A model generated the notes under the pieces. It saw only the letters and a list, made by a program, of their open reading frames with translations, was not told the DNA's origin and searched no databases. From the NCBI GenBank assembly GCA_947561395.2, contig OX387185.1:35816213-35880212 (forward strand): a stretch of 64,000 bases of DNA. The letters are read 5' to 3'. Below, piece by piece: positions 1,234 through 53,400 of this stretch. The position numbers and the translations under genes are program-made. Position 1 is the stretch's first letter. Each line of letters begins with the position of its first letter. This DNA is from Buxus sempervirens (lineage: Eukaryota > Streptophyta > Magnoliopsida > Buxales > Buxaceae).

Positions 1234-3103
1234 CTGTGGATTTAAGCCATGTTTTGTGTTTGTTCATACTTTATTCTTATTTGTGAAGGCTTGCTGTTTT
1301 GAAACTTTATGTGAACTTGCTTGAAATATCTAGCATGTTATTTTGTATGGTTAGAAGATTCATGAAGATATGGCATGTGTGAGGTGCGTAATTGTGCCTA
1401 GAAATTCGTTTAGGGAAAGCCTATCCCATAACATGATTTTTGTGTGCTTGATGATAACATGGCTAAATTTGGGGATTTAATGTCATATTTGGATGATGGA
1501 AATTAACCGCATGAATTCAGTAAATTTGGTAGGGATTTTTGGGGGTTTTCAAGCATGTTGTCCTCAATTAACACTTCTTGCATCCTATTTTAGTCGCTGA
1601 ATTTTTTTGGGCTTTAATGAGGCATGTCGAGCATAAAAAACCCATGAGCAAAAAATTCTGGAAATTCAGTGGGCATGTTGTTAGGTGCTGTTTTTTAGGC
1701 TTGAAATCGGGCATAAAACAATGTAACTTAAGCCCAAAAAATGAAGAAAAAATCTGGAAATTTCAGTGTATATGTTAGGGGTTTTCAAGCATCTTTCAAC
1801 CATCAAAACCTTTTTTTTATATCATGTCAAGTAGTGTTGAATTTTTAGGCTTAAATTTGGGTAGAAATGGTACACTTTGAGCATGAAAAAAGAGCATGAA
1901 ATCTGAGATTTAGGGAATGCTTTTGGGTTTCAAGCATGCTTCCATGGTTTAATTGTTGTTTGCACAAATAACATGTTTTTATACTACTTTTGGGCATGTA
2001 ATATTTTTGTGCATATTTGGTTGCTTTGGCTCTTGCTTGCTTGTATTTAGCTTCACTATTTTGTCATATGTACCTTGGCTTGAAATTGAATGCATGGCTA
2101 CGAAAAAGAGTGGCAAGGGGCTGGGACGTTGTGAATGTTACCTCAATGTTAAATTGCACTTTAGCACTTTAAACTATTTGCACAGCCTACCCATTACCTA
2201 TAGGAAGTTGAACCATGAATGTGTGTAGCTTGGCGCACCGAAGTCGTGACTTCGGAAAGCGAAAGTGAAAACATTTACCTTAGAATTTGGGTCAATGATG
2301 TGATGACAATGGGATCTGTGATTCGATTCCAGGCATCACTAGACTTGAGTTCTAAGTTGCCAATTAAGCCAAAACCCAAAAACCATACGCTTGAAGGTGG
2401 AGAAACACGTTTTCAGCTAAAAGCACACAATTGTGTTTGGGGAATTGGGTGTAAATGTGGGAAGGCCGTTTGCATGTTTTACAGGCCAAGGTACAATGTG
2501 AATACCATATTGAATGAAGGTAATACAAGGTGGCAAGGTAAAGCCATGTTCTTTTCATGAATTTGTGGAATTTTGCAAGTATGATGTCCAAGCCCAATTT
2601 AGGGCAAGTTTTGAAGGTTAAGTTAAGGTGAACATCAAGTGGGAATGAAAAAAACCTAATCTGGTGAAAAAATGAGTCAAAAATGGCCATTTCGGTATTA
2701 ACCGGCAACTCAGGCTGATTAAGAGTACTTTTCTTCATATCCGGTATATATTGCCGGATACAAAGGCTTATGCGTGTATCCGGTCATTGTTGCCGGATAC
2801 AATAAGACATATGCTTATCCGGTACTTAATGCCGGATACATGCAGAAAATGCATAAATGGGTTTTTTCAGCCCGAATTTTCAGAATAAAAAGCCTAAACA
2901 CTGTGGATAATCCTTAGGCACCCCAAAGAGAACATAAAAATGTTTCAAAAAAAATAATAATAAATATTCTTTTAGGATTTAACCTAAAGCAAGCTAAGGT
3001 GTCATATTTTTTTTATATCAATTCAATTCAAACATGTGTCAATCAAGCTTTGGAACTTGAAAACTGAGAAAATTCAGCAAATTTCAAAAACAAAAAACAA
3101 AAA
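1234..3103 (+). other. Untranslated leader of element A
   Basis: About 1.9 kb between the PBS and the tandem array. It is AT-rich and nearly identical to 43139-44602 and, in reverse orientation, similar to 25870-27660. Open frames up to 124 codons occur, but they are not preserved as proteins between copies. The only structured part I see is the dyad cassette at 2699-2838. No upstream ORF1 of the kind described in Ogre elements is recognisable. Confidence 0.7.
2699..2838. promoter_or_regulatory. Four-dyad cassette in leader of A (39-bp period)
   Basis: Four 23-bp inverted repeats start at 2699, 2738, 2777 and 2816, exactly 39 bp apart. Units 2-4 read TATCCGG-N9-CCGGATA with perfect 7-bp arms. 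Unit 1 (TAACCGG...CTGATTA) is degenerate here, but its counterpart in B (26276) is perfect. The 16-bp sequences between dyads are not conserved while their length is. I infer a protein-binding array. Confidence 0.85.
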
Positions 3104-3622
3104 ACCCTTGGTTGGTTATTTTTATCAATCAAGTTAAAAAATTTTAGGACATTTGGAAGCCTCAGAATATTCCAAGAACCTTTGTTTGGTCACGAGAACC
3201 ACTCAAAGTCAAAATTTTTAGGACATTTGGAAGCCTCAGAATATTCAAAAAAACCTTTGTTTGGTCACGAGAACCACTCAAAGTCAAAAATTTTTAGGAC
3301 ATTTGGAAGCCTCAGAATATTCCAAGAACCTTTGTTTGGTCACGAGAACCACTCAAAGTCAAAATTTTTAGGACATTTGGAAGCCTCAGAATATTCCAAG
3401 AGCCTTTGTTTGGTCATGAGAACCACTCAAAGTCAAAATTTTTAGGACATTTGGAAGCCTCAGAATATTCCAAAAAACCTTTGTTTGGTCACAAGAACCA
3501 CTCAAAGTCAAAAAATTTAGGACATTTGGAAGCCTCAGAATATTCCAAGAAACCTTTGTTTGGTTATTTCTACCAATCAAAACCAAAAATTTGGGGGACA
3601 CTTGGAAGCCCCAAAATATTCC
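3104..3622 (+). repeat. Tandem array of about 75-bp units upstream of gag (A)
   Basis: About seven units of 74-76 bp, each containing ACATTTGGAAGCCTCAGAAT and CCTTTGTTTGGTCA. The first and last units resemble the unit of element B (with TTGGTTATTT and ATCAATCAA), whereas the central ones share a derived variant. This indicates local expansion after A and B separated. Open frames across it simply reflect a period divisible by three and are not genes. Confidence 0.9.
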
Positions 3623-3811
3623 AAGCAAAAAATTAAAAAAAAAACAAAAAAAAAACCAAAAAATCTGGACTGGTGTTCACCTGACCTACTTGTCTACATT
3701 TATAGGGGTGTGTTTCAAATTAAATGGAAGCTGACTTGTGCCTTTGTTTTTCTTCCCCAGGTACACTTATTTGCAATCATTGCTCCCGTGACCAGATCCA
3801 AAGCCAGAGCC

Positions 3812-7059: not shown

Positions 7060-7064
7060 CCAGT
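7060..7064. other. Target site duplication of element B, left copy
   Basis: CCAGT directly precedes the TGTGAGACA end of B and recurs at 29958-29962. Removing B with one copy restores the open frame of A across the junction, which confirms the insertion. Confidence 0.93.
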
Positions 7065-8944
7065 TGTGAGACATGGGGAAAAATCACCGGAATGATCATC
7101 CCTCCGTCAACACACGGGCTCAACGCAAAAACGGGAGAGTCGCCACCATTCATGATTTTGGGGTGAGAATGGACACCAAAGAGTTCAAAATAAGCAAAAA
7201 GTGAAAAAAGAAGCATTCTAGGATAAAAATAATCCTACTTGAAAATCAAATCCAGAGATGGGTAAGGGGATTAGATTATGAACGGGGAAAGGTGTTAGGC
7301 ACCCCCATTCATCCACACGAAGTGGTTGCCAAGTGTATGTTCATGCTAAAAAGAAAATAAGAAGCTTGCTAAAAATCATGAAAAAGCCTTGAAAAAGGAA
7401 CAAGTGTATGATATATTCACATGGAGATCCAAATGGATTTTAGATCTCCTCTTATGTCAATATCACTTCTGGAACATTAAAGAGGTGGAAATCAAAGCAC
7501 AAGTTGATCAAAACCAAGTTAAATCAAATCCGGGAATTTTGGTAAAAAGTAAGGTCCTTTGTCTTGAAATCATTCAAATCCAATTTCAAATTGATTCAAA
7601 CCAACTCTATTTGAAAGATTATGATAAATAAGGAACTCATGCAAAATCTCAAGTTAATCCGATAAAAATCCTAGGAGTTATGCTTCTTTGAAGTTGCTGC
7701 TGGGGATTTTTAAAAGTGGTAAGTGGGCAACTTTGGAAAATTGTCTAGAAAAATCCACTACATAAAAGCCCACGAAATTTGGTGTGATTGAAGTTTGTAT
7801 GGCCATCTTTCCATAGAAACTAGCCTCATACAAAAATCCCTTCGGATGTGCCTTGGGTGGTCTCCCGAACAGGCCCCGAAGATCACAGATTTACCCAGAA
7901 AAGTACAAATGAACAGTTCTGAGTAAATCGGCTACCAATAATTCAAATGGAATCCAAAAATTATGAAACCAACAGGATTTGAAAATAGACTCATAAAGGA
8001 GTACTCAGAAACAAAAATCACTCGAATCGGACTTAAAACGAACACATGGCGGTCCGTCGAAGTGACAAGTTCTGTACTTGAACCTGAACTGTCCACTTAA
8101 CTTCGACAGAGAGGTGTCAAAAATCCACTGGATAGAAATTTGTGAAATTTGGTGGACATGAACTAGACAGCCTCACCTTTCCCATGGTTCTGGAATCACC
8201 CCAAAATTCATCCGGATGATGAAGTTACGGACGTCCGAAGTAAGGGTACAGGTGCTGTCAAGTTAAGCCACTTTTGAAGAAAACCAAATCCGAAAATTGA
8301 CAAAAAGTGTGTGATTCGTGTGAGATGAATCCAAAACCTTTGAAAAGCATTTTAAAATACTCCAGAATTTGATTGAGGTCATTTATTTGAGATTTATCAC
8401 AATAAATGCAATAAACCCCAAATATGAGCCTATTCACCAAAAAGGTGTAATATGTGTGCAAAAGTGAAAAACCAAGCAAGATCCATACACATGCATATAG
8501 ATTCAACAAAATAGGTTCTAGCATAGCCTAGGGTTCCGTTCCATTATCGTTTCCCTCTGTTCTCTTTAAGATAATCAAGGGTACTTTGAATATGGAACGG
8601 TTTACAATCAATCAAAAAGGCCTTATGCTACATAGGTTCTAGCACTAGGGTCAATCCCCAGTCTCGTTTCTCCTAGATCCGCCTTCACGTTTTACGGTTA
8701 GGGGAGTCTTGAGATACTTTGAGCCGGGGAAGGATTTCCACACATACAAACAAGGCTTTACACTACAGAAAGGTAGAAGAAGAGATCTAGATCTAGGAAT
8801 GTAAAGACAGAAAATAAAAAGAAAAGTTGAGGCTTACCTGAGTTCTGGAGGCGATTCCACAGCGGTTTTCTTCTTCTCTTGGAGTTCTTCTTTACGAGAA
8901 TTCAAAACAAGAGTTGAGTGTCATTTGCTCAAGGAGGAGGCTCC

Positions 8945-8952
8945 TATTTATA
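8945..8952 (-). promoter_or_regulatory. LTR promoter TATA box (B, 3' LTR)
   Basis: TATAAATA on the minus strand inside GCCTATAAATAGG. It is identical in context to the boxes at 29562, 41186 and 51344, and lies 157 bp downstream of the dyad cassette in element orientation. Confidence 0.75.
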
Positions 8953-9109
8953 GGCAAGGGCTAAGGTCATTGGTAGACACAACTTAATGTCTAGAACCCC
9001 TCCAACCTTAACCCTAAGGTCATTTCCGCGATTTCCCCTCATTTAATGAGGGACATGATGGTAAAAGTGAAAAGCTCTCGGAAAACCCTAATTTTGAGCA
9101 AACTTAAGG

Positions 9110-9249
9110 TATCCGGTATATCAGACCGGATAACAAAGGGCCTTAAGGTATCCGGTACATGGTACCGGATACACTAAGGCTCACATGTATCTGGTATGAG
9201 TATCCAGATACGGGAAGGAGTACTTGTATCCGGATTGAGTATCCGGATA
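9110..9249. promoter_or_regulatory. Four-dyad cassette in 3' LTR of B
   Basis: 23-bp dyads start at 9110, 9149, 9188 and 9227, exactly 39 bp apart. Three have arms TATCCGG/CCGGATA. The third reads TATCTGG/CCAGATA, changed symmetrically in both arms relative to the right LTR, where the left arm is intact. Confidence 0.88.
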
Positions 9250-9340
9250 CAGGTAAAAGTTTATTTTCTTCAAATTCTGTGCTGGCTTTCCAGGAGATAA
9301 TGATTTTTGATGATTGTTTGTGCAATTTGGGGTGTCTACA

Positions 9341-9355
9341 ACTGCCCCTCTTTGC
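9341..9355 (-). other. Polypurine tract of element B
   Basis: On the minus strand GCAAAGAGGGGCAGT abuts the TGTAGACACC start of the 3' LTR. The equivalent tracts in A (40760-40774) and F (50918-50932) are nearly identical, as expected of the plus-strand primer. Confidence 0.8.
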
Positions 9356-9933: not shown

Positions 9934-10023
9934 TATCCGGTAAATATATCCGGATAATCAAGGGTCTGCGGGTATCCGGCCTGAGTATCCGGATCCCGCA
10001 GGTTTACTTAAGTCGCGCGCGAC
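9934..10023 (+). promoter_or_regulatory. Promoter of antisense gene 1 (B): two dyads and GTCGCGCGCGAC palindrome
   Basis: Two 23-bp dyads start at 9934 and 9973 (39 bp apart) and are followed by a perfect 12-bp palindrome GTCGCGCGCGAC at 10012-10023. Element F keeps the same order on its minus strand (dyads at 50353 and 50314, palindrome at 50287-50298), although its dyad arms differ. I infer the gene 1 promoter, with transcription starting soon after the palindrome. Confidence 0.65.
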
Positions 10024-11212: not shown

Positions 11213-13885
11213 ATGGCTAGGAGTCGTTCCCGAGTTAGAGAGGAGGCTGACCCAGCTGATCAGCCCTCCTCTTCGCGGGCTCGTACGGAGGCGAGTTCCA
11301 GTGCTACCTTGTCTGAGCCATTGGATGTCTCCAGGGAGAGCTCTGCTGAGGTAGGCTTTCAAAAAAAATTTTTTCATTCTTTCTTCATTCTCCTTTTACA
11401 TCAATCTTCACACCTTTCTCTTTGAAATTTAGCCCGTGGTTGCACTGGCTCGGGGTCGAGGCAGAGGCAGAGGCAGAGTTCAGGATCAGGCCCCTGAGGG
11501 CGAGAGAGGCCGTGGTAGAGGCCGAGGCAAAGCCAGAGATATGGCTCCGGAGGGGGTTGCTGTTGCTCTGGCAGGGGTCTCTGAGGAGTTGAGGGCTTCT
11601 GTTCAGGATACAGAGCTTCTCCATGGCTTGGATAGCCACCCCTCCATGTGCATCAGGGCGGATGTGCCGCTTCCGTACCATTCTTCCCATCTGCGGGGTA
11701 GTTGGGGGAGATTTAGTGAGTTAGCTCAGTCATTGTCTTCGGCACTCAGGCGGGAGTTTGGGAGATGTCATCTGGATCACTTCCTCAGCATTCCATCATT
11801 CAGAGCCGACCGTCCACTCATCTTTGCCATGATGGAGAGATACTTCCCAGACACACAGTCGTTCCACCTGCCGGACGTGGAGCTGGGGATCCGCCCCTCC
11901 GATTTTGTGATGATTACTGGCATTCCTCTGACGGGGCGGACCATCGTCTTGGAGCGGCCTTCTGCAGAGGATATGGGACTTCTCCTGGGATATCAGGCCC
12001 TGCCACCTACTGCTTGGGATGGGCGGAGCGGCCGGCTCTCCATTAGCTGGCTGCGGGAGAGTCTGGCTCGACATTTTGAGGGGAGGCACGAGACTGTCTC
12101 TGTGGAGGATGCAGCCTTTGCGCTGATCTTCCGACATGTATTCCTACTGATGTTGGGGAGCTGCTTCTTCCCGGAGGATACGACTGGTGTCAGTCCGCTC
12201 TTTTTGGACGCCTTGAGAGATTTCCATCAGACCCGCCAGCTAGCATGGGGTCGGCTTATCTATGGGACCATCTTGGCCGGGCTGTGCCGAGCGGTTCGAG
12301 GCTTAGCTTCTCCGAGAGGTGATGGAGTCAGCAGCCGGTTTTTCTGCATGATTCTACAGGTATTGCATTCATCTGTCTGGTTTAATTACTTAGGCTTTAT
12401 CTTTTCTTGGCTGATTTTTCTTTTGCTAGGTGTTCATGTACACCTATATGACCTTCTTCCGCCCCTCCCCTGTTCCTGAGGTCGCAGATTTTCCAGTGGC
12501 TTTGCGATGGTCGGCCCAGGTCCGGGATGCTGATAGGAGTCAGCCTCGTACTGCCCGGGTGCACTTAGACCGTGCCCGCCGATCTGATGTAAGCCTTATT
12601 TTTTTCTTTTCTTTCCTTTCCTGTATCTTGACTGTACCTGACAGTTTCCCTTTTTTGCAGCTCCTTCTGTCCCGATTTGATGACGTGGATGTTGGGGTGG
12701 CTCGTGAGATGGCGGTACAGGACGCCTTCGATAGAGATCGACGACGTCAGCCCTACCAGTGCTTCCTCGGGAGGCTTGGTAGGGTGATGTACTTAGGAGA
12801 GCGCCTGTACTTCCAGCATACCAGCGCACTTCGCATCCCCGTCCCTCCTCCTCCTGTGGGTCCCGACACACTCCTTCCCGGCTTCGACGTGGATCAGTTT
12901 GATCATTTTCTGGATGCAGAGGGGCTCACAGTAGCCGGAGATTACGACGAGTGGTTCCAGAGGGTGTCTATTGGATGCTTGATGGATCGACCCACTCGTG
13001 CCGGGGTGACTGAGATCGGCGGGATCCGTATCCGGATCCATGAGGACACCGTAAGTCTTATACTCTTTATATTTTCATCCTTTTTTTTTTTCCTTATGCA
13101 TTTCTGTCCCTTCTTCTGTTCTTGTTGGCAGGTACACGAGCTGAATACCATCCGGGACCGGTTTGAGAGTCAGCGGGCTGCGATCGATGATATGATCGCG
13201 GAGCACGATGCGGTCGTGGCCCAGCGGGATGCCCGGATCAGGGAGCTGGAGGCCTTAGTTGCTGAGCTCCAGTCTAGACAGGTATCTGGCCTTCTCATAT
13301 GTTCATTTCTTTCATTATTTTCCTGTTTCTGCTATTCTGATATGCTTGTTTGACTTGTGCAGGGCCCGGTCCATGATCAGGATGCCTTCTTTGAGCATGA
13401 TTTCCTGATTCCTGACCCATCTCCTGCTCGGGCCTCTGATCCCGAGGATGCCCCAGCGGCTGGTCTTGACGAGCCGGATCCTCCTGCTCCTTCTGCAGAT
13501 ATTCCTGGTATGATCTTCTTTTAATTCTACTCTTTTATTCTTCCTTATATCTGAGTCTTCTGATTTTTCTCTTTTCTGTGGACTTAGCTACTTCTGATCC
13601 TGGCCCTCTGCTGCTGATGCTGGGCCTTCTGGAGCTGCGGGAGCAGAGGATGCTTTGGATGAGGGCCCAGTTGGGCCGGTTGCTGCTGAGCCCGAGGCTT
13701 CTTCCCCAGATTCTGCTCCTGCTCCTCCCCCAGATCTCGAGGATTATTGCTTGGAGTATCAGCTTCAGCAGGTGGTAGGTCGGCATCCTCACCATGCAGC
13801 CGAGCGGATCCTTGCATACTCTAGAGGCCGAGCACTTTGGGGGAGAGGCCGTAGAGGTGGACGCGGCCGAGGACGCGGGGGATGA
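11213..13885 (+). CDS. Plant mobile domain (PMD) protein, antisense gene 1 of element B, one frameshift
   Basis: Seven exons with GT-AG introns of 70-82 bp: 11213-11350, 11433-12359, 12430-12588, 12661-13050, 13132-13281, 13363-13507, 13588-13885, about 735 residues. Start: ATG directly after a splice acceptor. The N-terminus is Ser/Arg-rich, followed by GRGRGRG repeats. A PMD-like domain covers roughly residues 70-440 (FHLPDVELGI, ITGIPLTGR, RLIYGTILAGLCRA). A heptad-rich coiled coil fills exon 5, exon 6 is acidic, and the C-terminus ends in RG repeats. One base is missing in exon 7 near 13607 relative to A, shifting the frame; otherwise it is intact. PMD proteins are known in plants as MAIN/MAIL-type nuclear factors and as genes carried by transposons. 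Function within the element is unknown; a nuclear nucleic-acid-binding role is inferred from the RG tails. Confidence 0.85.
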
Positions 13886-14109: not shown

Positions 14110-14268
14110 TATCTGGTCTGACATACCGGATACATTGATTGGTCTTTGTATCCGGTCTGACATACCGGATATTCATGGAATCCTCTGTATCCGGTATACT
14201 TATCCGGATATTACTAAAGCCTTTGTATCCGGTCTGAGTTACCGGATATGTTAAAAGATGCTATAAAT
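14110..14268 (+). promoter_or_regulatory. Promoter of antisense gene 2 (B): four dyads and TATA box
   Basis: Dyads start at 14110, 14149, 14188 and 14226 (periods 39, 39, 38), followed by TATAAAT at 14262-14268. The gene starts at 14379. A's copy has the same arrangement in reverse (36847-36985, TATA at 36827-36833). The spacer of the dyad nearest the gene (TCTGAGTTA) equals A's, so the cassette moved with its promoter. Confidence 0.8.
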
Positions 14269-14378
14269 GCAACCTGCCTCGGGATTTGAGCATTTTTTAC
14301 GAGTTTTTGAGTTTAGAAACCCCCTTTTTCGCCTTTTTCCTCCTCTTCTTGAGTTCTAGCTTGCTCCCATCACATCCA

Positions 14379-16115
14379 ATGGAATCCGGATCATCTTCTG
14401 CCCCATTACTAACTGTCCACACTGCCTCCCCTGCAAAACAACCTTTTAGATCAAAACCCCCAAATCTCACTAGGTACAACCCTGTGGATTCCTTTTACAC
14501 AAGGTGGGTTAACTCTATGACCCTAGATGAGGAGAGGAGATGGGGTACTACCAACCTAGGCCATACCCTGCTCATTCCCAAGGTTTCCTTCAGGTGGGAG
14601 ATTATAGAGGCCATGATTGGTCATTGGGTTCCTGATCTCAACTTGTTCCGTTTTGGGAACCATGAGATGACCCCAACCATTGAGGAGGTGGAAACCATCC
14701 TGGGCCTGAGGTTTGATGAGAAGGTGGTGAATCCACCTCTTAGGCCCAGTTACAAGAAGGAAGCTTCTACTTTTTTGGGCATAGGGAAGAAGGACTTGGG
14801 GGATTCTGACACCCTTTTGACCCTATCTAAGGCTTTTTTGACTGAGAAGCTTTTGAGGGGAGAAGATAAGGAGGCCCGATTCCATGCGTTGACCCTGATA
14901 GTGGTCAACCAGTTGCTTTTCCCACGGGAGGATGACGAGGTGGACTTGGCCTTGATTTCCGTGATATGCCAGGTTAGGGAGCGGGAGAGGTTGGCCCCTA
15001 TGATTTTAGCTGGAATATATCAAGCTTTGACTGATTGCTACAACAGGAAGTCGAAACGCTTCTTAGCATGTGCCCAGATCCTGCAGGTAAAAAAGTTTTT
15101 TTTTTTTTTGTTTTTTTTTCTTTTTTCTTTTTTTCTTGCTTTTTGGCTTTCTTTCTGCCTTTTTTGCTTCTTTTTTTTTTCTTTTTCTTTTTTTTTTTTA
15201 TATACAGTGTGCTGACATATCTCTCCTCCTTTGCAGCTTTGGCTACTTGATCATTTGAGCCAGATTGAAGAGATCAATCGACACTTCTTCCCGAGTCTGA
15301 AAGTCCCTCTCTTGATGAGCAACAGGGGGTGCCCCGATATTCCAGGGGGCAAACAGGGCTGGTTCACTTTCTTGGGCTCGCTTCAGGATGACCAGGTGAG
15401 ATGGCCTGGTACTTATCAGCCTAATGCGGAGACAGTGATTAGCTTCCGAGACCGCAACTTTCTGATTCTGGCTGGCCTGAGGCATGCAGTGCTTTATCTT
15501 CCTCTGCGGGTCCTTCGTCAGTACCGTGCGACCCAGGGGATTATCATCCCATGTGGATATGAGGATCGTCTTGGGCCCCTTTCTATGAAGCTAAATGCCT
15601 GGTTGATGAAGGAGTGGTCCTATGTCCGCTTTATGCATGGTCCAGTCTTCTCAGAAGCCCATGTGAAGGATTATCTTTTCTGGATCAAGGAGCAGATACA
15701 GACTCAGGCCCCAATACCCGAAGATCCTCCTGTAGTCTTGGCTCCCATCTATGAGGACATTCTAGAGTCTGAGCGGGCTTCTCATAAGCGGCTTCAGCAA
15801 ATATGGGTACGGGAGGCCCAGGAGCTCAGGATACAGGGCGCTTATCTGGAGAGGCAGCTTGAGGAGCAGATCTCACGCCGTATTGCCGTGGAAGAGAAGC
15901 TGGAGGAGCAGAGGCAGGCTCGTTGCTTTGAGGTCCGTATGATCCGGCAGAAGTACCAGGATACTTTGGCCAGCCTTAGAAGTATGCGGATTAAGCAAGC
16001 CCTTTCAGATGAGGTCATTTCCTTCCTAAGTGATCCCGCTGCAGAGGGGGCTTCAGGAGTCATTGCAGCTCAGGCAGCTCGGATTCGGGGGCTTGAGGAG
16101 CGGCTAGGAGATTAG
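14379..16115 (+). CDS. DUF7745-type protein, antisense gene 2 of element B, intact
   Basis: Two exons, 14379-15086 and 15237-16115, joined across a T-rich GT-AG intron, give 528 residues with no lesion. The start is the first in-frame ATG, conserved in A at 36717. Residues about 30-390 resemble the plant DUF7745 family (LFRFGNHEMTPTIEEVETIL, RFLACAQIL, RHAVLYLPLRVLRQYRATQG). Residues about 400-510 are Arg/Glu/Gln-rich and form a coiled coil. AATAAA lies at 16193-16198. The family is common in plant genomes near retrotransposons and has no known activity. Intactness beside slightly damaged neighbours suggests the gene was functional at insertion. The identification is from memory of conserved motifs. 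Confidence 0.82.
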
Positions 16116-17047
16116 CTTTATTTCCTGCACATTTTTCATACCTTTGTACAAAATTGAATTCCAATAGTGGAAATACAAAGAATTTAATTCAAAATAAAGT
16201 TTTTATATTATTGGCCTCAGAATGCTTAGATGCTTGTAAAAACAAAGGTTTTATGAAAAGTATTTGATTTCTCATCACTGGCCAAAGTATAATTTTTCCT
16301 TTTTTATTTTTTTTGTTTTTTGAAATTTGGTCCATGCACTTAATCACCTATAATTAAAAGAATTAGAACCAGGTTAAATAATGAAAAGGATAGTCCAGAA
16401 AATACTGAGGGATCAGAACCGTCCATCTTAGGACCTTTAGAGTCATTCCCAAATGCCAAAACTGCCCCATATAACTCATGCCGATTTTGCTTGAAGCTCA
16501 GATCCCCATGATCAACTCAACCTCTGATTTTCTTTCATTTTTTCTTATATATATTTTTTCTTTTTTTGACAATGTTGCCCCTAGCGCCAGTTACGGTTTT
16601 CACTAGGGCCGGCTTCTGAATTCCGTCATCACCCATCTTACTCTGATATTTGAATGAACAAGCTAAGATCACCGAGGGCTTAAAAATAGGACGAAATAAA
16701 GGCTAGGCTCAGTTTATGAAAGAAAGGGTATTAAAGGCCCAAAATTTTCAAGTGTGGAAATAGGTCAACCGGATTTACAGTCATGATAAATTTAACCATT
16801 TTTCCCCACATTGCATTTTTTGCATCTTTTTTTCACACTTGGCTTTCATTTGCCATTTCCATTGCTTTTCCTCTCTTTTTCTTTTTCTTTCCTCACTTTT
16901 GCCCCAATTGATTTTGCCCCAATTTGACTGTAAATCCGGTTTGGGTTGATCAAAGAAACGAACCGGCTCAATTTGGCTAGACTAGGGATTTGAATTTTGA
17001 AGGAAATAAAGAAAAATGGCCTCGGATCATTTCCTAGAAATATTCAC
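16116..17047. other. Convergent intergenic region between antisense gene 2 and pol (B)
   Basis: Holds the gene 2 polyadenylation signal and the sequence following the pol stop on the other strand. It aligns with 33993-34961 of A. No reading frame is conserved. Sense and antisense transcripts converge here, so their 3' ends may overlap. Confidence 0.6.
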
Positions 17048-24589: not shown

Positions 24590-25850
24590 GATTGATAAAA
24601 ATAACCAACCAAGGTTTTCATGGAATATTCTAGGGCTTCCAAGTATCCCACAAATGTTTTGATTTGATTGATAAAAATAACCAACCAAAGGTGTCTTGGA
24701 ATATTCTAGGTCTTCCAAGTATCCCACAAATGTTTTGATTTGATTGATAAAAATAACCAACCAAAGGTGTCTTGGAATATTCTAGGTCTTCCAAGTATCC
24801 CACAAATGTTTTGATTTGATTGATAAAAATAACCAACCAAAGGTGTCTTGGAATATTTTAGGTCTTCCAAGTATCCCACAAATGTTTTGATTTGATTGAT
24901 AAAAATAACCAACCAAAGGTGTCTTGGAATATTCTAGGTCTTCCAAGTATCCCACAAATGTTTTGATTTGATTGATAAAAATAACCAACCAAAGGTGTCT
25001 TGGAATATTCTAGGGCTTCCAAGTATCCCACAAATGTTTTGATTTGATTGATAAAAATAACCAACCAAAGGTGTCTTGGAATATTCTAGGTCTTCCAAGT
25101 ATCCCACAAATGTTTTGATTTGATTGATAAAAATAACCAACCAAAGGTGTCTTGGAATATTCTAGGGCTTCCAAGTATCCCACAAATGTTTTGATTTGAT
25201 TGATAAAAATAACCAACCAAAGGTGTCTTGGAATATTTTAGGTCTTCCAAGTATCCCACAAATGTTTTGATTTGATTGATAAAAATAACCAACCAAAGGT
25301 TTTCATGGAATATTCTAGGGCTTCCAAGTGTCCCACTTTTTTTTTGATTTGATTGATAAAAGTAACCAACCAAGGTTTTCATTTTTTTTTTTGATTTGAT
25401 TGATAAAAATAACCAACCAAGGTTTTCATGGAATATTCTAGGGCTTCCAAGTGTCCCACTTTGTTTTGATTTGATTGATAAAAATAACCAACCAAGGTTT
25501 TCATTTGTTTTTTTGATTTGATTGATAAAAATAAACAACCAAGGTTTTCATTTTTTTTTTTGATTTGATTGATAAAAATAACCAACCAAGGTTTTCATGA
25601 AATATTCTAGGGCTTCCAAGTGTCCCACTTTTTTTTGACTTGATTGATAAAAATAACCAACCAAGGTTTTCATTTTTTTTTGATTTGATTGATAAAAAAT
25701 AACCAACCAAGGTTTTCATTTTTTTTTTTTGATTTGATTGATAAAAATAACCAACCAAGGTTTTCATGGAATATTCTAGGGCTTCCAAGTGTCCCACTTT
25801 CTTTTGATTTGATTGATAAAAATAACCAACCAAGGTTTTCATCATTTTTT
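24590..25850 (-). repeat. Tandem array of 76-bp and shorter derived units upstream of gag (B)
   Basis: About nine regular 76-bp units (24620-25310) contain ATTTGATTGATAAAAATAAC and GGAATATTCTAGG, followed to 25850 by irregular short units with T-runs. Because 76 is not a multiple of three, overlapping 68-codon frames appear at each unit; they are artefacts. The unit is homologous to the edge units of A's array. Confidence 0.92.
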
Positions 25851-29957: not shown

Positions 29958-29962
29958 CCAGT
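29958..29962. other. Target site duplication of element B, right copy
   Basis: CCAGT, identical to 7060-7064. Element A coding sequence resumes directly after it. Confidence 0.93.
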
Positions 29963-34961: not shown

Positions 34962-36717
34962 CTAATCTCTGTCTCCTAGCCGCTCCTCAAGCTCCCGAAT
35001 CCGAGCTGCTTGAGCTGCGATAACTCCAGAAGCCCCCTTTGCAGCGGGATCACTCAAGAAGGAAATAACCTCATCTGAAAGAGTCTGCCTAATCTGCATG
35101 CTCCTAAGGCTGGCTAAAGCATCCTAGTGCTTCTGCCTCAATGCTCGGACTTCAAGACAGCGGGCCTACCTATGTTCCTCAAGTTGCTTCTCCATAGCCA
35201 GACGGCGAGATACCTGCTCTGCAAGTTGTCTTTCCATATCAAGGCCCCGTATCCTAAGCTCCTGGGCCTCTCGTACCCATATCTGCTGGAGTCGCTTGTG
35301 AGAAGCTTTCTCAGACTCTAAAATATCCTCATAAGTAGGAGCCAAGACTGTAGGAGGGTCTTCAGGTAATGGAGCCTGACTCTGTATCTGCTCCTTGATC
35401 CAGAAGAGATAATCCTTCACATGGGCTTCTGAGAAGACCAGGCCACGCATGAAGCGAACATAGGACAACTCCCTCATCAACCAGGCATTCAGCTTCATGG
35501 TAGCTGGAGAAAGGGGCCCAAGATGATCCTCAAACCCACTTGGGATGATAATCCCCTGGGTCGCTCGGAACTGACGAAGGACCCGCAGAGGAAAATAAAG
35601 CACTGCATGTCTCAGGCCAGCTAGAATCAGAAAGTTGCGGTCTCGGAAGCTAATCACCGTCTCTGCATTGGGTTGATAAGTACCAGGCCATCTCACCTGG
35701 TCATCCTAGAGTGAACCCAAGAAAGTGAACCAACCCTGTTTGCCCCTTGGAATATCGGGACACCCCCGGTTGCTCATCAAAATGGGGACTTTCAAGTTTG
35801 GGAAGAAGTGTCGATTGATTTCCTCAATTTGACTCAGATGATCAAGTAGCCAAAGCTGCAAAGGAAGAGAGATATATCAGCACATTGTAAAAGAAAAAAA
35901 AAAGCAAAAAAGCAAGAAAAAAGCAAAAAGCAAGAAAAAAGCAAAAAGAAAGCAAAAAGAAAAAAAATAAAAATAAAATAATAAAAAAGAAAAAAAAAAA
36001 TTTTTTTACCTGCAGGATCTGGGCACATGCTAGGAAGAGTTTTGACTTCCTATTATAGCAATCAGTCAAGGCCTGATACATCCCAGCCAAAATCATAGGG
36101 GCCAACCTCTCCCGCTCCCTAACCTGGCATATCACTGAAATCAAGGCCAAGTCCACCTCATCATCATCTCGTGGGAAAAGCAGCTGATTGACCACTATCA
36201 GGGTCAGGGCGTTGAACCGGGCTTCCTTGTTCTCCCCCCTCAAAAGCTTCTCAGTCAAAAAAGACTTAGACAACGTCAATAGGGTGTCAAAATCTCCCAA
36301 GTCCTTCTTCCCTATGCCCAGAAAAGTAGAAGCCTCCTTTTTGTAACTGGGCCTAAGAGGTGGATTCACTACCTTCTCAGCAAACCTCAAACCCAAGATG
36401 GTTTCAACCTCCTCAATGGTTGGGGTCATCTCATAGGTCCCAAAACGGAAAAGGTTGAGGTCGGGTACCCAATGACCAATCATGGCCTCTATAATCTCCC
36501 ACTTGAAGGGAACCTTGGGAATGAGCAGGGTGTGGCCTAGATTAGTAGAATCCCATCTCCTCTCCTCATCAAGGGTCATAGAGTTAACCCATCTTGTGTA
36601 AAAGGAATCCACATGGTTGTACCTAGTGAGATTTGGGGGTTTTGATCTAAAAGGTTGTTTTGCAGGGGAGGCAGTGTGGAAAGACAATAATGGGACAGAA
36701 GATGATCCGGATTCCAT
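34962..36717 (-). pseudogene. DUF7745-type antisense gene 2 of element A, three premature stops
   Basis: Two exons, 36717-36010 and 35855-34962, with exon 1 the same 708-base length as in B and the same intron position. Exon 1 is fully open. Exon 2 has TAG at 35706-35708, 35166-35168 and 35124-35126, each at a codon that is CAG in B. The gene ends three codons later than B's relative to the last shared Gly. Upstream lie a TATA box (36827-36833) and the dyad cassette. It was evidently the same gene as 14379-16115 before decay. Confidence 0.88.
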
Positions 36718-36826
36718 TGGAGTTGATGGGAGCAAGCTAGAACTCAAGGGGAGGAAGAAAAAGGCGAAAAAGGGGGTTTCTAAACTCAAAAACTCGTAAA
36801 AATACGCAAATCCCGAGGCTGGTTGC

Positions 36827-36985
36827 ATTTATAGCATCTTTTAATGTATCCGGTAACTCAGACCGGATAAAAAGGTTTTATTCATATCCGATTAAGTATA
36901 CCGGATACAAAGGGGACCATGTGTATCCGGTATGTTATACCGGATGTAAAGAACAATCAATGTATTCGGTCTCATATACCGGATA
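36827..36985 (-). promoter_or_regulatory. Promoter of antisense gene 2 (A): TATA box and four dyads
   Basis: ATTTATA (minus-strand TATAAAT) at 36827-36833. Dyads start at 36847, 36885, 36924 and 36963 (periods 38, 39, 39). Several arms carry one substitution (TATCCGA, CCGGATG, TATTCGG), consistent with A being older than B. Confidence 0.8.
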
Positions 36986-40774: not shown

Positions 40775-40877
40775 TGTAGACACCCCAAATTGCATTGTCA
40801 AAATGATCAATAATCATCAAAAATCATTATCTCCTTGAAAGCCAGTACAAAAATTGAAGAAAATAAGTTTTTACCTG

Positions 40878-41017
40878 TATCCGGCAACTCAGGCCGGATA
40901 CAAGTACTCCTCTGTGTATCCGGTGGAACATACCGGATACAAGAGAGCTTTAGTGTATCCGGTATTATATACCGGATACCTTAAGGCCCTTGTGTATCCG
41001 GCCTGATATACCGCATA
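40878..41017. promoter_or_regulatory. Four-dyad cassette in 3' LTR of A
   Basis: Dyads start at 40878, 40917, 40956 and 40995, exactly 39 bp apart. The first three have perfect arms; the fourth has one mismatch (CCGCATA). The first spacer, CAACTCAGG, equals that of unit 1 in the A leader. The cassette ends 169 bp before the TATA box, as in F. Confidence 0.88.
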
Positions 41018-41185
41018 CACAAGTTTTGCTCAAAATTAGGGTTTTCCGAGAGCTTTTCACTTTTACCATTATATCCCTCATTAAATGAGGGGAAATCTCG
41101 GAAATAGCCTTAGGGTTAAGGTTGGTGGGCTATAGACATTATGTTGTGTCTACCATTCTCACCAACCCTAACCCTAGCCTTTGCC

Positions 41186-41193
41186 TATAAATA
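41186..41193 (+). promoter_or_regulatory. LTR promoter TATA box (A, 3' LTR)
   Basis: TATAAATA in the shared context GCCTATAAATAGGAGGCTCC. Confidence 0.78.
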
Positions 41194-43119
41194 GGAGGCT
41201 CCTCCTTAAGCAAATGGCCATTAACTCTTGTTTTGAATTCTCGCCAAGAAGAACTCCAAGAGAAGAAGGAAACCACTGCGGAAGTGCTTCCAGAACCCAA
41301 ATAAGCCTCAAACTTTTCTTTTATTTTCTGTCTTTACATTCCTAGATCTAGATCTCTTCTTCTACCTTTCTGCAGAATAAAGCCTTTCTATGTGTGTGAA
41401 AATCCTTCCCCGGCTCAAAGTATCTCGAGACTCCCCCTAGCCGTAAAACGTGAAGGCGGGATCTAGGAGAAACGAGACTGGGGATTGACCCTAGTACTAG
41501 AACCTATGTAGCATAAAGCCTTTTGATTGATTGTAAACCGTTTCATATTCAAAGTACCCTTGATTATCTTGAAGAACCGTGTTTAACGGGGAGAGAGAAC
41601 AAAGGGAAACGATAATGGAACGGAACCCTAGGTTGTTTTAGAACCTTATTTTGATGAATATGTATGCATGCTATGTTGTTCTACTAATTTTGTATGGTTT
41701 TTTACACTTGCACATACATAGCAATATTTTGGCGGGATAGGCTCATATTTTGGGTTTATTGCATTTATTGTGATAAATCTGAAATAAATGGCCTCAATCG
41801 ATTCTGGAATATCTTTGGATGATTTTTAAAGGTTTTGTGTTCATCTTGCACGAATTGCACACACTTTGTCACATTTTTGCATTGGTTTTACTCAAAAAGG
41901 GCCTAACTGGACAGCAACTGTACCCTTACTTTGGACGCTCATAACTTCATCATCCGGATGAATTTTGGAGCGAATCTAGAACCATGGGAAAGGTGAGGCT
42001 GTCTAGTTTATTTCCACCAAATTTTATTAATTTCTATCAAACGGATTTTTGACACCTCTCTGTCGAAGTTGATTGGTCAGTTCAGGTTTCAATACAGAAC
42101 TTGTCACTTCGACAGAGCGCCATATGTTCGTTTTAAGTCCGATTCGAATGATTTTTATTTCTGGGCACTCCTTTATGAGTCTATTTTCAAATCCAATTGG
42201 TCTCATAATTGTTTGACTTCCTTTGAATTATTGGTAACCGATTTACTCAGAACTGTTCATCAGTACTTTTCTGGGTAAATTGGTGATCTTTGGGGCCCAT
42301 TCGGGAGACCACCCAAGGCACATCCGAAGGAATTTTTGTATGAGGCTAGTTTCCTTGGAAAGATGGCCATACAGACTTCAATCACACCAAATTTCGTGGG
42401 TTTTTATGGTGTGGATTGTTTTAGGTGATTTTCCAAAGTTGCCTACTTGCTACTTTTGATTTTCTCCGGCAGCAACTTTACAAGGAGCATAACTCCTACG
42501 TTTTTACCCGGAATTACTTGAAATTTTGCATGAGACTATTATTTACCATAATCTTTCAAATGGATTTGGTTTGATTTGATTTAAAATTGGATTTGAATGA
42601 TTTCAAGACAAATGGTATTACTTTTACCAAATTTCCCGGATTTGCCTCAACTTGGTTTTGTACATTCTTTTGCTTGGATTTTTATCCTTTTATGACATTT
42701 CAGAAATGATATTGACATAAGAGAAGATCTAAAATCCATTTGGATCTTCATGTGAATATATCATTCACTTGTTCCTTTTTCAAGGCTTTTCATGATTTTT
42801 TAGCAAGCTTCCTATTTTCTTTTAGCATGAACAAACACTTGACAACCACCTTGTGTGGGTGAATGGGGGTGCCTAACACCTTCCCCCGTTCATAATCTAA
42901 TCCCCTTACCCATCTCTGGATTTGATTTTCAAGTAGGGTTATTTTTACCCTAGAATTTGCCTTTTAGCACTTTTTTGCTATTTTTGCTTATTTTTAATTC
43001 TTTTGGTGTCCATTCACACCCAAAATCTGAATGGTGGTGACTCTCCCAATTCTTACATTGAGCCCCGTGTGTTGACGGAGGGATGATCATTCCGGTGATT
43101 TTTTCCCGTGTCTCACAAC

Positions 43120-44602
43120 TGGCGACTCTGCTGGGGACCTGTGGATTTAAGCCATGTTTTGTGTTTGTTCATACTTTATTCTTATTTGTGAAGGCTTGCT
43201 GTTTTGAAACTTTATGTGAACTTGCTTGAAATATCTAGCATGTTATTTTGTATGGTTAGAAGATTCATGAAGATATGGCATGTGTGAGGTGCGTAATTGT
43301 GCCTAGAAATTCGTTTAGGGAAAGCCTATCCCATAACATGATTTTTGTGTGCTTGATGATAACATGCCTAAATTTGGGGATTTAATGTCATATTTGGATG
43401 ATGGAAATTAACCGCATGAATTCAGTAAATTTGGTAGGGATTTTTGGGGGTTTTCAAGCATGTTGTCCTCAATTAACACTTATTGCATCCTATTTTAGTC
43501 GCTGAATTTTTTTGGGCTTTAATGAGGCATGTCGAGCATAAAAAACCCATGAGCAAAAAATTCTGGAAATTCAGTGGGCATTGTTGGGATTTTCAAGCAT
43601 GTTTTCCCTAGCTAAAAGGCCTTTTGTACCATGTTGTTAGGTGCTGTTTTTTAGGCTTGAAATCGGGCATAAAACAATGTCACTTAAGCCCAAAAAATGA
43701 AGAAAAAATCTGGAAATTTCAGTGTATATGTTAGGGGTTTTCAAGCATGTTTCAACCATCAAAACCTTTTTTTTATATCATGTCAAGTAGTGTTGAATTT
43801 TTAGGCTTCAATTTGGGTAGAAATGGTACACTTTGAGCTTGAAAAAAGAGCATGAAATCTGAGATTTAGGGAATGCTTTTGGGTTTCAAGCATGCTTCCA
43901 TGGTTTAATTGTTGTTTGCACAAATAACATGTTTTTATACTACTTTTGGGCATGTAATATTTTTGTGCATATTTGGTTGCTTTGGCTCTTGCTTGCTTGT
44001 ATTTAGCTTCATTATTTTGTCATATGTACCTTGGCTTGAAATTGAATGCATGGCTACGAAAAAGAGTGGCAAGGGGCTGGGACGTTGTGAATGTTACCTC
44101 AATGTTAAATTGCACTTGAGCACTTTAAACTATTTGCACAGCCTACCCATTACCTATAGGAAGTTGAACCATGAATGTGTGTAGCTTGGCGCACGGAGGT
44201 CGTGACTTCGGAAAGCGAAAGTGAAAACATTTACCTTAGAATTTGGGTCAATGATGTGATGACAATGGGATCTGTGATTCGATTCCAGGCATCACTAGAC
44301 TTGAGTTCTAAGTTGCCAATTAAGCCAAAACCCAAAAACCATACGCTTGAAGGTGGAGAAACACGTTTTCAGCTAAAAGCACACAATTGCGTTTGGGGAA
44401 TTGGGTGTAAATGTGGGAAGGCCGTTTGCATGTTTTACAGGCCAAGGTACAATGTGAATACCATATTGAATGAAGGTAATACAAGGTGGCAAGGTAAAGC
44501 CATGTTCTTTTCATGAATTTGGGGAATTTTGCAAGTATGATGTCCAAGCCCAATTTAGGGCAAGTTTTGAAGGTTAAGTTAAGGTGAACATCAAGTGGGA
44601 AT
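43120..44602 (+). other. Second PBS and leader copy after A's 3' LTR
   Basis: The PBS at 43120-43138 and about 1.46 kb of leader are nearly identical to 1215-2650, with a small extra block near 43585-43630. At about 44602 the leader jumps into mid-LTR sequence. A second internal region once followed and was lost by deletion. Open frames at 43909-44516 copy those at 1953-2560 and are not genes. Confidence 0.88.
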
Positions 44603-49170: not shown

Positions 49171-49199
49171 CGCACACAATCCACCATCAATGATTCATC

Positions 49200-50286: not shown

Positions 50287-50375
50287 GTCGCGCGCGACTT
50301 ATATAACATAGTGTATCCGACAGATCATGTCGGATACAAATGAGACCTTTCATATCCAACCACATACGTCGGATA
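50287..50375 (-). promoter_or_regulatory. Promoter of antisense gene 1 (F): palindrome and two dyads
   Basis: GTCGCGCGCGAC at 50287-50298 and dyads at 50314-50336 and 50353-50375, 39 bp apart as in B. The first dyad has arms TATCCGA/TCGGATA, the F version. Confidence 0.7.
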
Positions 50376-50932: not shown

Positions 50933-53400
50933 TGTAGACACCCCAAATTGCACAGTAAAAATGATGAATAATTGGCAAAAATCATTCTTTCCTTTGAAAC
51001 CAGCACAAAATTTGAGAAATAAGCATTTTTTCTTGTATCCGACAACTCAAGTTGGATACAAGCATATCCTTTCATATCCGACAGAAGTTGTCGGATATAA
51101 GCAGGCATTAATGTATCCTATGACATATGTAGGATGCATATATGTGCTCGTGTATCCGACCTGAGATGTCGGATACAAGCTTTTTGCTCAAAATTAGGGT
51201 TTTCCGAGAGTTTTCACTTTTTACCATCATATCCTTCATTAAAGGAGTGGAAATCTCGGAAATAGCCTTAGGATTAAGGTTGGTGGGCTCTAGACATTAT
51301 TTTGTGTCTACCATCATGCCAACCCTAACCCTAGCCTTTGCCTATAAATAGGAGGCTCCTCCTTAAGCAAAGGGCCAATAAGTTGGAGATTGAAGAGCTC
51401 CGAGTGAAGAAGGGAACTGCTGCCGCACTGCTTCCAAAACCCAGGTAAGCCTAAACCCCTCTTTATTTTTCTATCTTACATTCTAGGTTTAGTTCTTTTC
51501 TTCTACCTTTCTGTAGAATAAGGCCTATTCTGTGTGTATGCAAACCCTTCCTCTACTCAAAGTACCTCAAGACTCCCCCTAGCCGTAAAACGTGAAGGCG
51601 GGATCTAGGGGAAACGAGACTGAGGATTGATCCTTAGTGCTAGAACCTTGTTGAATAGCCCTTTGATTCTATGAAAACCGTTTCATATTGAAAGTATCCC
51701 AAGATTATCTCGAAGAACTGTTAAACGGGGAGAGAGAAGTAAGGGAAACGAGAATGGAACGGAACCCTAGGTTGTTTTAGAACCCCATTTGATTGATATG
51801 AATGCATGCTATATGTCGTTATGTTATTGAAGAAATGATTTTTATACATACACACATAGCACTTGCTTTTGTCGAAATCGGCTTATATTTCGGATTTATT
51901 GCATTCATTGTGATAGATCTGGAATAAATAGCCCCAAACAATTCTGGAATATTTCTTAATGGTTTTCAACATGATTTCAAACAAGTATTGAAAACCTCTA
52001 GGTCTAACCTCTCGGTTTCGGGCATTTTTGCTCAATTTTGGGGTTTTTGGCATATTCTTTTCAATCGAAGGAAATGGTGAGCCAAGCTTGTGCCCTATTT
52101 CTTCCTAGAGGTTCTTCAACTTTGTCTAAATGGTTTTGATTCATATTGCACGGATTACACACACCCAAGCACTGTTTTGAATTGATTTTACTTAAAAGTG
52201 GCAAAACGGGACAGCAGCTGTACCCCAACTTCGGACACTCGTAACTTCATCGTCCGGATGAATTTTGGAGTGATTCTAGAGCCATGGGAAAGGTAAGGCT
52301 GTCTAATTTATGCCTACAAAAGTTTCTTAATTTTTATCAAGTGGATTTTTGACACCTCTCAGTCGAAGCTGATAGGTCAATTCAGGCCAGATTGTGGAAC
52401 CCGTCACTTTGGCTGAGCGCCATGTGTTCGTTTTAAGTCCGATTCGAGTGATTCTTGTTTCTGAGTTTTCCTTTGGAAGTCTAATTTCAAATCCAGTTGG
52501 TTTCATAATTTTTTGACTCCATTTGTATCGTGGGTAACAGATTTACTCAGAACTGCTCAACAGAACTTTTCTGGGTTAATCTGTGATCCTCGTGGCATAT
52601 TCGGGAGATCACCCAAGGCACATCCGAATGAATTTTTTTAAGAGGCTAGTTTCATTTGAAATATGGCTCTACATACTTAATTCATACCAAATTTCATGGA
52701 TTTGAATTGAGCCGATTTTTCTAAATGATTTTCCAAACTTGCCCACTTGTCACTTTTAACTATCTCCAGCAGCAGATTTCAAAGGAGAATAACTCCTAGG
52801 GTTTTAACCGGAATTAAATGGAAATTTGCATGAGTCTTATATTTATCATTGTCTTTCAAATGGATTTGGTTTGATTCAATTTAAATTAGATTTGAATGAT
52901 TTCAAGACAAATTGTTCTTGCTTTTACCGAATTTTCCGGATTTGACTCAACTTGGTTTTGTGCAATTTTTGCTTTGATTTCCATCTATTGGTGATATTCC
53001 AGAAGTAATATTGACATATAAGAGGATCTGGAATTCATTTGGATTTCTTATGTGATGGTATCACACATTTGTTTAATCCTTTCTCAAGGAGTTTGATTAT
53101 TTTAGCAAGCTTTCTCATTTTTTTAGCATGAATAACACTTGACAACCACCTTGTGTGGGTGAATGGGGGTGCCTAACACCTTCCTCCATTCATAATCTAA
53201 ACCCCTTACCCATCTCTGGATTTGATTTTCAAGTAGAGTTATTTTTACTCTAGTATTTGCCTTTTAGCTCTTTTTGCTTATTTTGAATCTTTTGGTGTCC
53301 ATTCACACCCCAAAATTGAATGGTGGCAACTCTACTATTTTCGTTGAGCCCGTGTGTTGACGGAGGGGAATCATCTCGGTGATTTTTTCCATGTCTCACA
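50933..53400 (+). repeat. 3' LTR of element F
   Basis: 2468 bp from TGTAGACACC to GTCTCACA. Dyad cassette at 51036-51175, TATAAATA at 51344-51351, CTAGCCGTAAAACGTGAAG near 51579-51597. Overall clearly diverged from the A/B LTRs. Directly followed by the broken RT of E. Confidence 0.9.
51036..51175. promoter_or_regulatory. Four-dyad cassette in LTR of F
   Basis: Dyads start at 51036, 51075, 51114 and 51153, exactly 39 bp apart. Core arms TATCCGAC/GTCGGATA replace the CCGG of A/B; the third unit reads TATCCTA...TAGGATG, also changed in both arms. It ends 169 bp before the TATA box. Confidence 0.88.

Follow-up and report, generated by a model that had tools for sequence, protein, structure and literature searches.

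Fixed-spacing dyad ladders in Ogre-like Tat retrotransposons of Buxus sempervirens as putative operator arrays

Nested Tat elements and their dyad ladders

The stretch analysed here, referred to as the window, comprises 64,000 nucleotides of Buxus sempervirens contig OX387185.1 (positions 35,816,213 to 35,880,212, forward strand) and contains nested Ogre-like Tat retrotransposons that carry ladders of a short inverted repeat in their long terminal repeats (LTRs), leaders and antisense promoters. Element E2 spans 7065-29957 on the minus strand and retains both of its 2276-bp LTRs (7065-9340 and 27682-29957), which differ at 18 sites, as well as a 5-bp target duplication, CCAGT (7060-7064 and 29958-29962). 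It is nested in E1, a plus-strand element that E2 splits into gag to the left and pol to the right. F is a related LTR (~50933-53400), and G is an additional minus-strand element. A primer binding site, TGGCGACTCTGCTGGGGAC, adjoins the LTR ends and presumably matches tRNA-Arg.

E2 encodes gag, a G-patch frame, reverse transcriptase, RNase H, an extra RNase H and integrase (RT-RH-aRH-INT), and two antisense open reading frame (ORF) regions with a plant mobile domain (PMD). The Tat features tested hold. In the E2 pol, RT (224-384) and RT_RNaseH (473-577) are followed by an extra RNase H (RVT_3, 632-750) before the integrase (rve, 917-1014), an arrangement reported as common to Ogre and Retand (PMC6317226). 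Antisense PMD frames lie 3' of pol in both elements, with PF10536 in 14238-15215 and 11433-12479 of E2 (plus strand, gag-pol on minus) and a PMD in 35842-36828 of E1 (minus strand, pol on plus). Antisense ORF1 of E2 (14379-16115, plus strand, ATG at 14379) consists of two open frames, the first PMD/DUF7745 and the second coiled-coil-like on visual inspection alone, and its E1 counterpart (35842-36828, minus strand) is likewise PMD/DUF7745. Antisense ORF2 of E2 (11433-13353, plus strand) has two frames with the PMD in the first.

A single rung of a ladder is a 23-bp dyad, TATCCGR-N9-YCGGATA, typically of the form TATCCGGTA-N5-TACCGGATA, and 23 strict TATCCG..CGGATA dyads occur in the window. 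An earlier note, made from the letters of this DNA, had described seven cassettes of exactly four such dyads and a single dyad in F, at near-constant 39-bp intervals. Dyads are present at all eight of these places, and among the eight four-rung ladders the interval is 39 bp in 22/24 cases and 38 bp in 2/24. The two 38-bp intervals (14188-14226 and 36847-36885) both fall at the same rung pair of the antisense-ORF1 cassette and therefore probably reflect one inherited event. The count of seven cassettes needs correction, however, since the ladders at 9110 and 29727 belong to the two LTRs of one element and were counted twice. F carries a complete ladder rather than one dyad, with rungs at 51036, 51075, 51114 and 51153, the third being TATCCTATG..TGTAGGATG. 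A scan blind to the letters, requiring at least three dyads with 8-bp arms at a fixed period, recovered the same eight ladders and, in addition, a minisatellite at 58.7 kb, whereas it found nothing in five Markov-shuffled windows.

The LTR ladders occupy the U3 region, at LTR positions 92-243 in E1, E2 and F. Each has four rungs at 39 bp: those of the E2 5' LTR (29727-29866, minus strand) and its sister in the E2 3' LTR (9110-9249, minus strand), that of the E1-type LTR 40775-43117 (40878-41017, plus strand), and that of F (51036-51175, plus strand), which uses other half-site letters, TATCCGAC..GTCGGATA. The LTR TATA box, GCCTATAAATAGGAG, is identical among E1, E2 and F and lies 165 bp beyond the ladder at 41183-41197 (plus strand) and 154-164 bp beyond the ladders at 51340-51354 (plus), 29558-29572 (minus) and 8941-8955 (minus). 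The leader ladders are found between LTR and gag in E1 (2699-2838, plus strand; rung 1 is degenerate, TAACCGGCA..GGCTGATTA) and in E2 (26159-26298, minus strand), again with four rungs at 39 bp.

At antisense promoter 1, the ladders of E2 (14110-14248, plus strand) and E1 (36847-36985, minus strand) share intervals of 39, 39 and 38 bp, and in both the last rung is followed after 11 bp by GCTATAAATGC (14260-14270 and 36825-36835, minus strand, respectively), with the PMD/DUF7745 ORF downstream. The same ladder-then-TATA arrangement is present at four loci elsewhere in the genome (L033, L038, L042 and L066). Antisense promoter 2, located a short way inside the 3' LTR, has two rungs followed by a TATA-like sequence, which is TTATATAAG in F and TTTACTTAAG in E2, and then by TCGCGCGCGAC. 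These two-rung ladders had not been listed earlier: that of E2 (9934-9995, plus strand, rungs at 9934 and 9973, 39 bp apart) precedes TTTACTTAAGTCGCGCGCGAC at 10003-10023, and that of F (50314-50375, minus strand, rungs at 50314 and 50353) precedes GTTATATAAGTCGCGCGCGAC at 50287-50307 (minus strand).

A further ladder of a second dyad type, likewise not listed earlier, with four rungs at a 28-bp period (59041-59141), lies in the leader of G; its arms, shorter than 8 bp, place it outside the reach of the letter-blind scan. Immediately beyond the window end, a 2+3-rung ladder starts at 64004. In the 2+3-rung ladders L047 and L048 (64004 onward), the groups of rungs lie 103-104 bp from each other, letters of the TTCGCGCC type stand between them, and the L048 ladder is followed by GCCTATAAAAAGCC. 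Thus, the claim of exactly four rungs stands for the eight ladders first described but not for antisense promoter 2, which has two, or for other families, which have 2+3 or five.

Several other features of these elements were observed. The LTR at 40775-43138 has the E1 3' internal end to its left and a primer binding site to its right, and the second leader that follows it stops ~50 bp short of the leader-ladder position, so that the two are perhaps a recombinant tandem. The G leader minisatellite (57989-58887) contains 21 copies of a different 23-bp imperfect dyad, TCTGAAA-N9-TTTCAGA, spaced 36-54 bp apart. Of the widths 14 to 40 scanned for TTGGAA..TTCCAA pairs, only width 23 gave any, with 15 in the window; these lie within the 75/76-bp minisatellites of the E1 and E2 leaders (3153-3624; 24696-25250), with one in G (57949).

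Spacing and arm conservation across the genome

We scanned the assembly (676,531,615 bases, 676.5 Mb) for the dyad and for its rung-to-rung spacing. Exact TATCCGR-N9-YCGGATA dyads number 41,238, compared to 14 for the reversed-pattern control, while dyads 1 bp wider (N10) occur at only 37 places (control, 5). The rung-to-rung pattern CGGATA-Nk-TATCCG is found 26,061 times at k=16 but 495 times at k=15 and 149 times at k=17, with reversed-pattern controls of 5, 40 and 12, respectively, bearing out the proposal that the length of the gaps is kept and not their sequence. Measured base by base at loci L012-L044, of which L012-L024 were taken at round coordinates (blind) and L025-L044 were picked for carrying dyads, the interval was 39 bp in 64/69 cases, 38 bp in 4/69 and 64 bp in 1/69. 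TATCCG ladders occurred in 1/13 of the blind 10-kb stretches, and any CCG-N11-CGG cluster in 4/13. The first dyad places listed on genome contig C1 include 3409339, 3413056, 3424970, 3429071 and 3429750, and four stretches there (L031-L034) match the window's LTR, leader, antisense promoter 1, and antisense promoter 2 plus LTR. The earlier note had named ladders missing from other copies, or random spacing genome-wide, as grounds for abandoning its proposal; neither was found, given the 64/69 intervals of 39 bp and the sharply peaked counts. A single exact dyad was also present in each of seven viral contigs, and these were judged to be chance matches.

We then compared divergence in the arms (outer 7+7 letters), the inner nine letters, the gaps between rungs and both flanks for 11 LTR ladders (55 pairs), leaving out second LTRs of included elements (L034, L039 and L043) and ladders whose 64- or 38-bp intervals break the fixed mask (L027, L028 and L030). 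Over all 55 pairs, mean divergence was 8.0% in the arms, compared to 35.1% in the inner letters, 35.2% in the gaps, and 30.7 and 15.0% in the flanks. The 15/55 pairs with both flanks <12% diverged, which are all the pairs of six E2-like copies, showed 1.8% divergence in the arms, 4.4 and 5.1% in the flanks, 7.6% in the inner letters and 11.4% in the gaps. At the extreme, L025 and L036 have identical arms although 50% of the inner letters and 42% of the gap letters differ. Arm divergence is higher in pairs involving F (11-23%) because F changed its letters as a set. The mosaic LTRs L025 and L044 share an upstream flank that is 4% different, with the downstream flank closest to E2-like copies in L025 and to E1 in L044 (5%), which suggests recombination close to the ladder.

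Between E1 and E2, the arms differ at 2/56 letters in the LTR, 3/56 in the leader and 4/56 at antisense promoter 1, compared with 11/48, 14/48 and 12/47 gap letters, respectively. The corresponding flanks differ by 11 and 10% (LTR), 4 and 15% (leader), and 23 and 8% (antisense promoter 1). The arms are therefore better kept than the gaps throughout, but not better than every flank. Across five window comparisons, no indels fell inside a ladder while 45 events fell in the flanks; three of these comparisons share LTR copies and some of the flank is non-homologous. The 300-bp flank comparison takes in such non-homologous flank at the E2 5' LTR, and it was repeated using the 3' LTR copy.

The two arms of a rung also vary together. 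Among 80 distinct rungs, left and right arms match at position 7 in 73 cases, compared with 54 expected by random pairing, at position 3 in 79 (71 expected), and at position 8 in 46 (30 expected). Genome-wide, G/A-mixed dyads number 4,387, compared to ~15,795 under independence, and are thus 3.6 times rarer than expected. In F, A7 is found in 12/12 half-sites, over both the LTR and antisense promoter 2, versus 1/52 in E1 and E2.

These patterns bear on whether the ladders are simply decayed minisatellites, that is, four tandem 39-bp copies inherited without selection. Tandem Repeats Finder does call several ladders 38/39-bp repeats, and the gaps retain a weak likeness (35-39% identity vs 26%). 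Decay of this kind, however, would hardly preserve arms while gaps diverged, hold the dyad width at about 1100 to 1, change the two arms symmetrically, or produce a second class of letters with the same geometry, and we regard it as very improbable. The suggestion that a single module gave rise to every cassette is weakly supported by the gaps, whose identity across cassette types is 35% versus 26% when shuffled. The broader claim of a module with selected spacing, which Tat elements keep in their LTRs, leaders and antisense promoters, is supported.

A second alternative is that the dyads act as hairpins in genomic RNA, for packaging or dimerisation, or as precursors of small interfering RNAs. 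On either strand, each of the eight ladders folds much better than shuffled sequence (z -4.6 to -11.4), and small RNAs are reported to be drawn to palindromic Sirevirus regions. On the other hand, loops and gaps are unconserved whereas the outer arms and the 39-bp register are conserved, and the 13 mismatched arm cells divide about half and half by eye between G-U and A-C. The ladders also lie upstream of the TATA boxes of the antisense genes, and therefore presumably outside those mRNAs. An RNA function thus seems quite unlikely.

The dyads are CpG-dense, and they could instead be a silencing or methylation target, or a mark imposed by host pathways that recognise them. The CpG observed/expected ratio is raised to about 1.0-1.7 in the ladders, compared with 0.24-0.65 in the flanks. 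Moreover, 4/18 differences between the E2 LTRs fall inside the ladder (P = 0.02), and 3/18 are C/T or G/A changes within ladder CCGG sites. These three sites lie within one rung (29805-29827 vs 9188-9210), a hint of methylation there. Elements should lose a pure target, yet the arms are better kept than the inner spacers and gaps. We therefore consider a silencing target unlikely; the CpG and methylation signal more probably follows from the sites than explains why they are there.

A wider dyad unit and the PMD/DUF7745 loci

The earlier note had taken TATCCGR as the repeating unit. Although that unit is sharply peaked genome-wide, the invariant unit is wider, namely CCG-N11-CGG with family-specific flanking letters and main periods of 39 and 28 bp. 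The window holds 36 CCG-N11-CGG dyads; at the remaining spacers between 3 and 25 the count is 0-8, apart from 19 at spacer 24, and in shuffles it is 0-3. The spacing also persists in diverged families. Two loci listed as carrying lone exact dyads (L045 and L046) proved to have 39-bp neighbours, with paired changes in those of L046 such as GATCC..GGATC and TAGC..GCTA; outside the ladder, both loci have little in common with the window. In the 28-bp ladder of G (59038-59144), the CCG-N11-CGG rungs are at 59041, 59069, 59097 and 59125, the second ending in CGA. At this period, half-sites alternate every 14 bp, and the 39-bp period is 11 bp longer, about one helical turn.

A second class of dyad, CCCGTA-N7-TACGGNC, occurs at 16,407 forward-strand places (control, 34), but at only 16 when made 1 bp wider (N8; reversed control of the N8 pattern, 207). 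TACGG-N11-CCGTA is found 16,634 times, versus 922 for its reversed-pattern control. In the LTR-like locus L072, second-class rungs at 28 bp are grouped in two and three directly before TTTTGCCTATAAATAGAGAGG, with the TATA 16 bp beyond the last CGG.

We inspected ~600 bp upstream of 10/118 scored DUF7745 (PF24924) loci, chosen across classes. Dyads were present in 8/10: L066 carries a 39-bp ladder and the same TATA as the window, and seven loci of other families carry other dyads, with the letters CCGTA..TACGG and CCGCA..TGCGG. Most intervals in these seven measure 27-28 or 55-56 bp, a 41-bp interval occurs in L063 and L068, and TATATAAA follows the ladder in L064, L065, L067 and L069. Upstream of the same seven ORFs, CCG-Nk-CGG gives 26 sites at k=11, while each remaining k between 3 and 25 gives 0-5. 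The remaining 2/10 loci (498-aa class) had no dyads within 600 bp. We also inspected ~2 kb upstream of 12/117 scored PF10536 loci for TATCCG-type and 8-bp-arm dyads and then for CCG-N11-CGG; none of the 12 had a ladder upstream, and a single lone site was found in L055. Taken together, the sampled PF10536 and PF24924 loci show that the ladder is not a general promoter element of PMD genes.

A putative operator and its closest precedents

The symmetry of the rungs, their fixed width and phase, the kept CCG, the variable centre and gaps, and the position ahead of TATA boxes look like the arrayed sites of a dimeric regulator. We therefore favour the reading that each ladder is an operator array for a two-fold symmetric DNA-binding protein that co-regulates the sense and antisense promoters of these elements, and give it a probability of roughly 0.68. 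One rung would be one dimer site, read by a sequence-specific and probably homodimeric protein whose core contact would be the CCG of either half-site, the two being kept in the CCG-N11-CGG arrangement with their centres 14 bp apart. Family specificity would come from the flanking letters (TAT-CCG-GT, TAT-CCG-AC, C-CCG-TA and AA-CCG-CA). Because 39 and 28 bp differ by about one helical turn, neighbouring dimers could sit on the same relative face, where they could bind cooperatively. Since arrays are found in the LTR U3, in the leader and upstream of the antisense PMD TATA boxes, one factor could switch the antisense PMD accessory genes, of which there are one or two, along with the sense genomic RNA. 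We consider activation or anti-silencing by this factor more probable than repression.

A number of observations weigh against the operator reading. Rung number is not constant (2, 4, 5 or 2+3), and isolated intervals of 41, 64 and 100-110 bp exist. Spacing is common to related copies by descent, so the genome-wide counts are not independent events, and common descent inflates the conservation and symmetry figures alike. The E1-E2 leader arms (5%) differ as much as the upstream flank (4%), the downstream flank differing by 15%, and the antisense-1 arms (7%) nearly as much as the downstream flank (8%), the upstream flank differing by 23%. Symmetry shows no excess at the nearly invariant positions 1, 2, 4, 5 and 6, and falls below random at position 9 (24 vs 31). 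A distance of 154-165 bp separates the LTR ladders of the window from their TATA box, and no clear TATA accompanies the E2 leader ladder. Finally, the CpG excess and the strong RNA hairpins of the ladders are what other functions would predict.

The reader of the putative operator could be a family-specific factor encoded by the elements, with the antisense PMD/DUF7745 protein as first candidate because its own promoters carry the site in these families, or a host factor. The switch of letters in F at separate places, affecting all 12 half-sites, suggests a reader that co-evolves with its sites. In a self-circuit of this kind, a PMD/DUF7745 dimer would read CCG-N11-CGG with the family flank code, assemble on the 39- and 28-bp ladders, and activate or keep open both the LTR and its own antisense promoters, co-evolving with the sites like VANC, the element-encoded protein of VANDAL transposons. 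We advance this circuit tentatively, with the odds clearly against it: besides the sampled PF10536 and 498-aa DUF7745 loci described above, the accessible passages on PMD proteins contain no direct DNA binding by a PMD (PMC5418596, PMC7156037, PMC9899485). AlphaFold modelling of a 239-aa PMD exon from a single sequence reached a mean pLDDT of 34.9, gave no usable fold and was discarded. In prokaryote-oriented databases, the first PMD frame had no match among 5,987 candidates, no solved structure was found, and four frames had no NCBIfam match.

The ladders could instead be arrays for a host transcription factor, such as a stress or developmental regulator, recruited by the elements in the way proposed for the Sirevirus boxes. 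Such a factor requires no element gene, and the F ladder persists even though the E2 PMD frames had no match near F within the window. The F half-site contains CCGAC/TGTCGG, letters known from DREB and ARF sites. Sirevirus palindromes were matched chiefly to stress factor sites (PMC2829016). However, families in one genome differ in their flanking letters, and do so concertedly at several places, a pattern that a co-evolving family factor explains more readily than one host factor would. A host factor accounts for the data nearly as well as the antisense PMD/DUF7745 protein, and we give it less than even odds.

Like the window elements, other Tat retrotransposons carry long ORFs in antisense in the region from pol to the 3' LTR, including TRP28 in Retand, for which a regulatory role was proposed (PMC11963269), and the PMD found in 57% of Ogre elements (PMC6317226). 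In the accessible portions of these accounts, promoter dyads are not described, whereas in the elements studied here one putative operator is common to the PMD promoters and the LTR. According to other studies, PMD-A1 and PMD-A2 are encoded by Gypsy elements only, PMDs captured by Mutator-like elements (MULEs) were speculated to serve anti-silencing, and genes down in main/mail1 mutants share a DOWN motif (PMC5418596, PMC7156037, PMC9899485); that motif (CATGCAGTTT at MORC1) is unlike the ladder dyads. The earlier note knew of no such geometry in Tat elements, and we likewise found no description of dyad ladders in Ogre/Tat elements in searches of open-access literature that covered listings, abstracts and passages, subscription papers being mostly outside the search; a close conceptual precedent does, however, exist in Sireviruses.

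The nearest precedents are structural in the case of the Sirevirus repeated motif (RM) boxes and mechanistic in the case of VANC. VANC binds motif arrays and removes silencing (PMC5735166). Like its arrays, the ladders are short family-specific motifs arrayed in the non-coding DNA of plant elements, with units changing together, as in F and in the CCGTA and CCGCA families. VANC arrays, in contrast, belong to DNA transposons and consist of same-orientation YAGTATTAY motifs with binding shown (PMC5735166), whereas the ladders are fixed-spacing dyads of LTR elements with a putative binder. If the PMD/DUF7745 circuit were true, it would be a VANC-like system in an LTR retrotransposon, and the PMD would gain a function. 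More broadly, tens of thousands of rigid-geometry dyads with family-specific flanks provide a directly testable lead to a putative DNA-binding factor that would control plant retrotransposons of very large size together with the genes they carry in antisense, a concrete hypothesis for the role of retrotransposon PMD proteins, and a natural series of sites for studying regulator/operator co-evolution.

The Sirevirus RM boxes of Bousios et al. 2010 are palindromic, with a CGG-CCG core in 12/13, and their function was not tested there (PMC2829016). Like the ladders, they cluster in the LTR shortly upstream of the TATA and again upstream of an extra gene (ENV in Sireviruses), with element-specific letters and CpG islands (PMC2829016). 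Sireviruses are Ty1/copia elements, however, unlike the Tat-type RT-RH-aRH-INT elements of the window. Their RMs are 10-20 bp long with CGG facing CCG across 4-6 bases, in 8-32 copies, and no fixed copy-to-copy spacing is reported in the accessible text (PMC2829016), whereas the ladders have CCG facing CGG across 11 bases, 2-5 rungs, a 39- or 28-bp period and extra genes in antisense. TATCCGG dyads show the CGG-to-CCG signature of the Sirevirus type, at a distance of nine bases, whereas TATCCGA dyads, those of F among them, lack it. The findings also suggest that the Sirevirus boxes and the Ogre ladders are parallel solutions.

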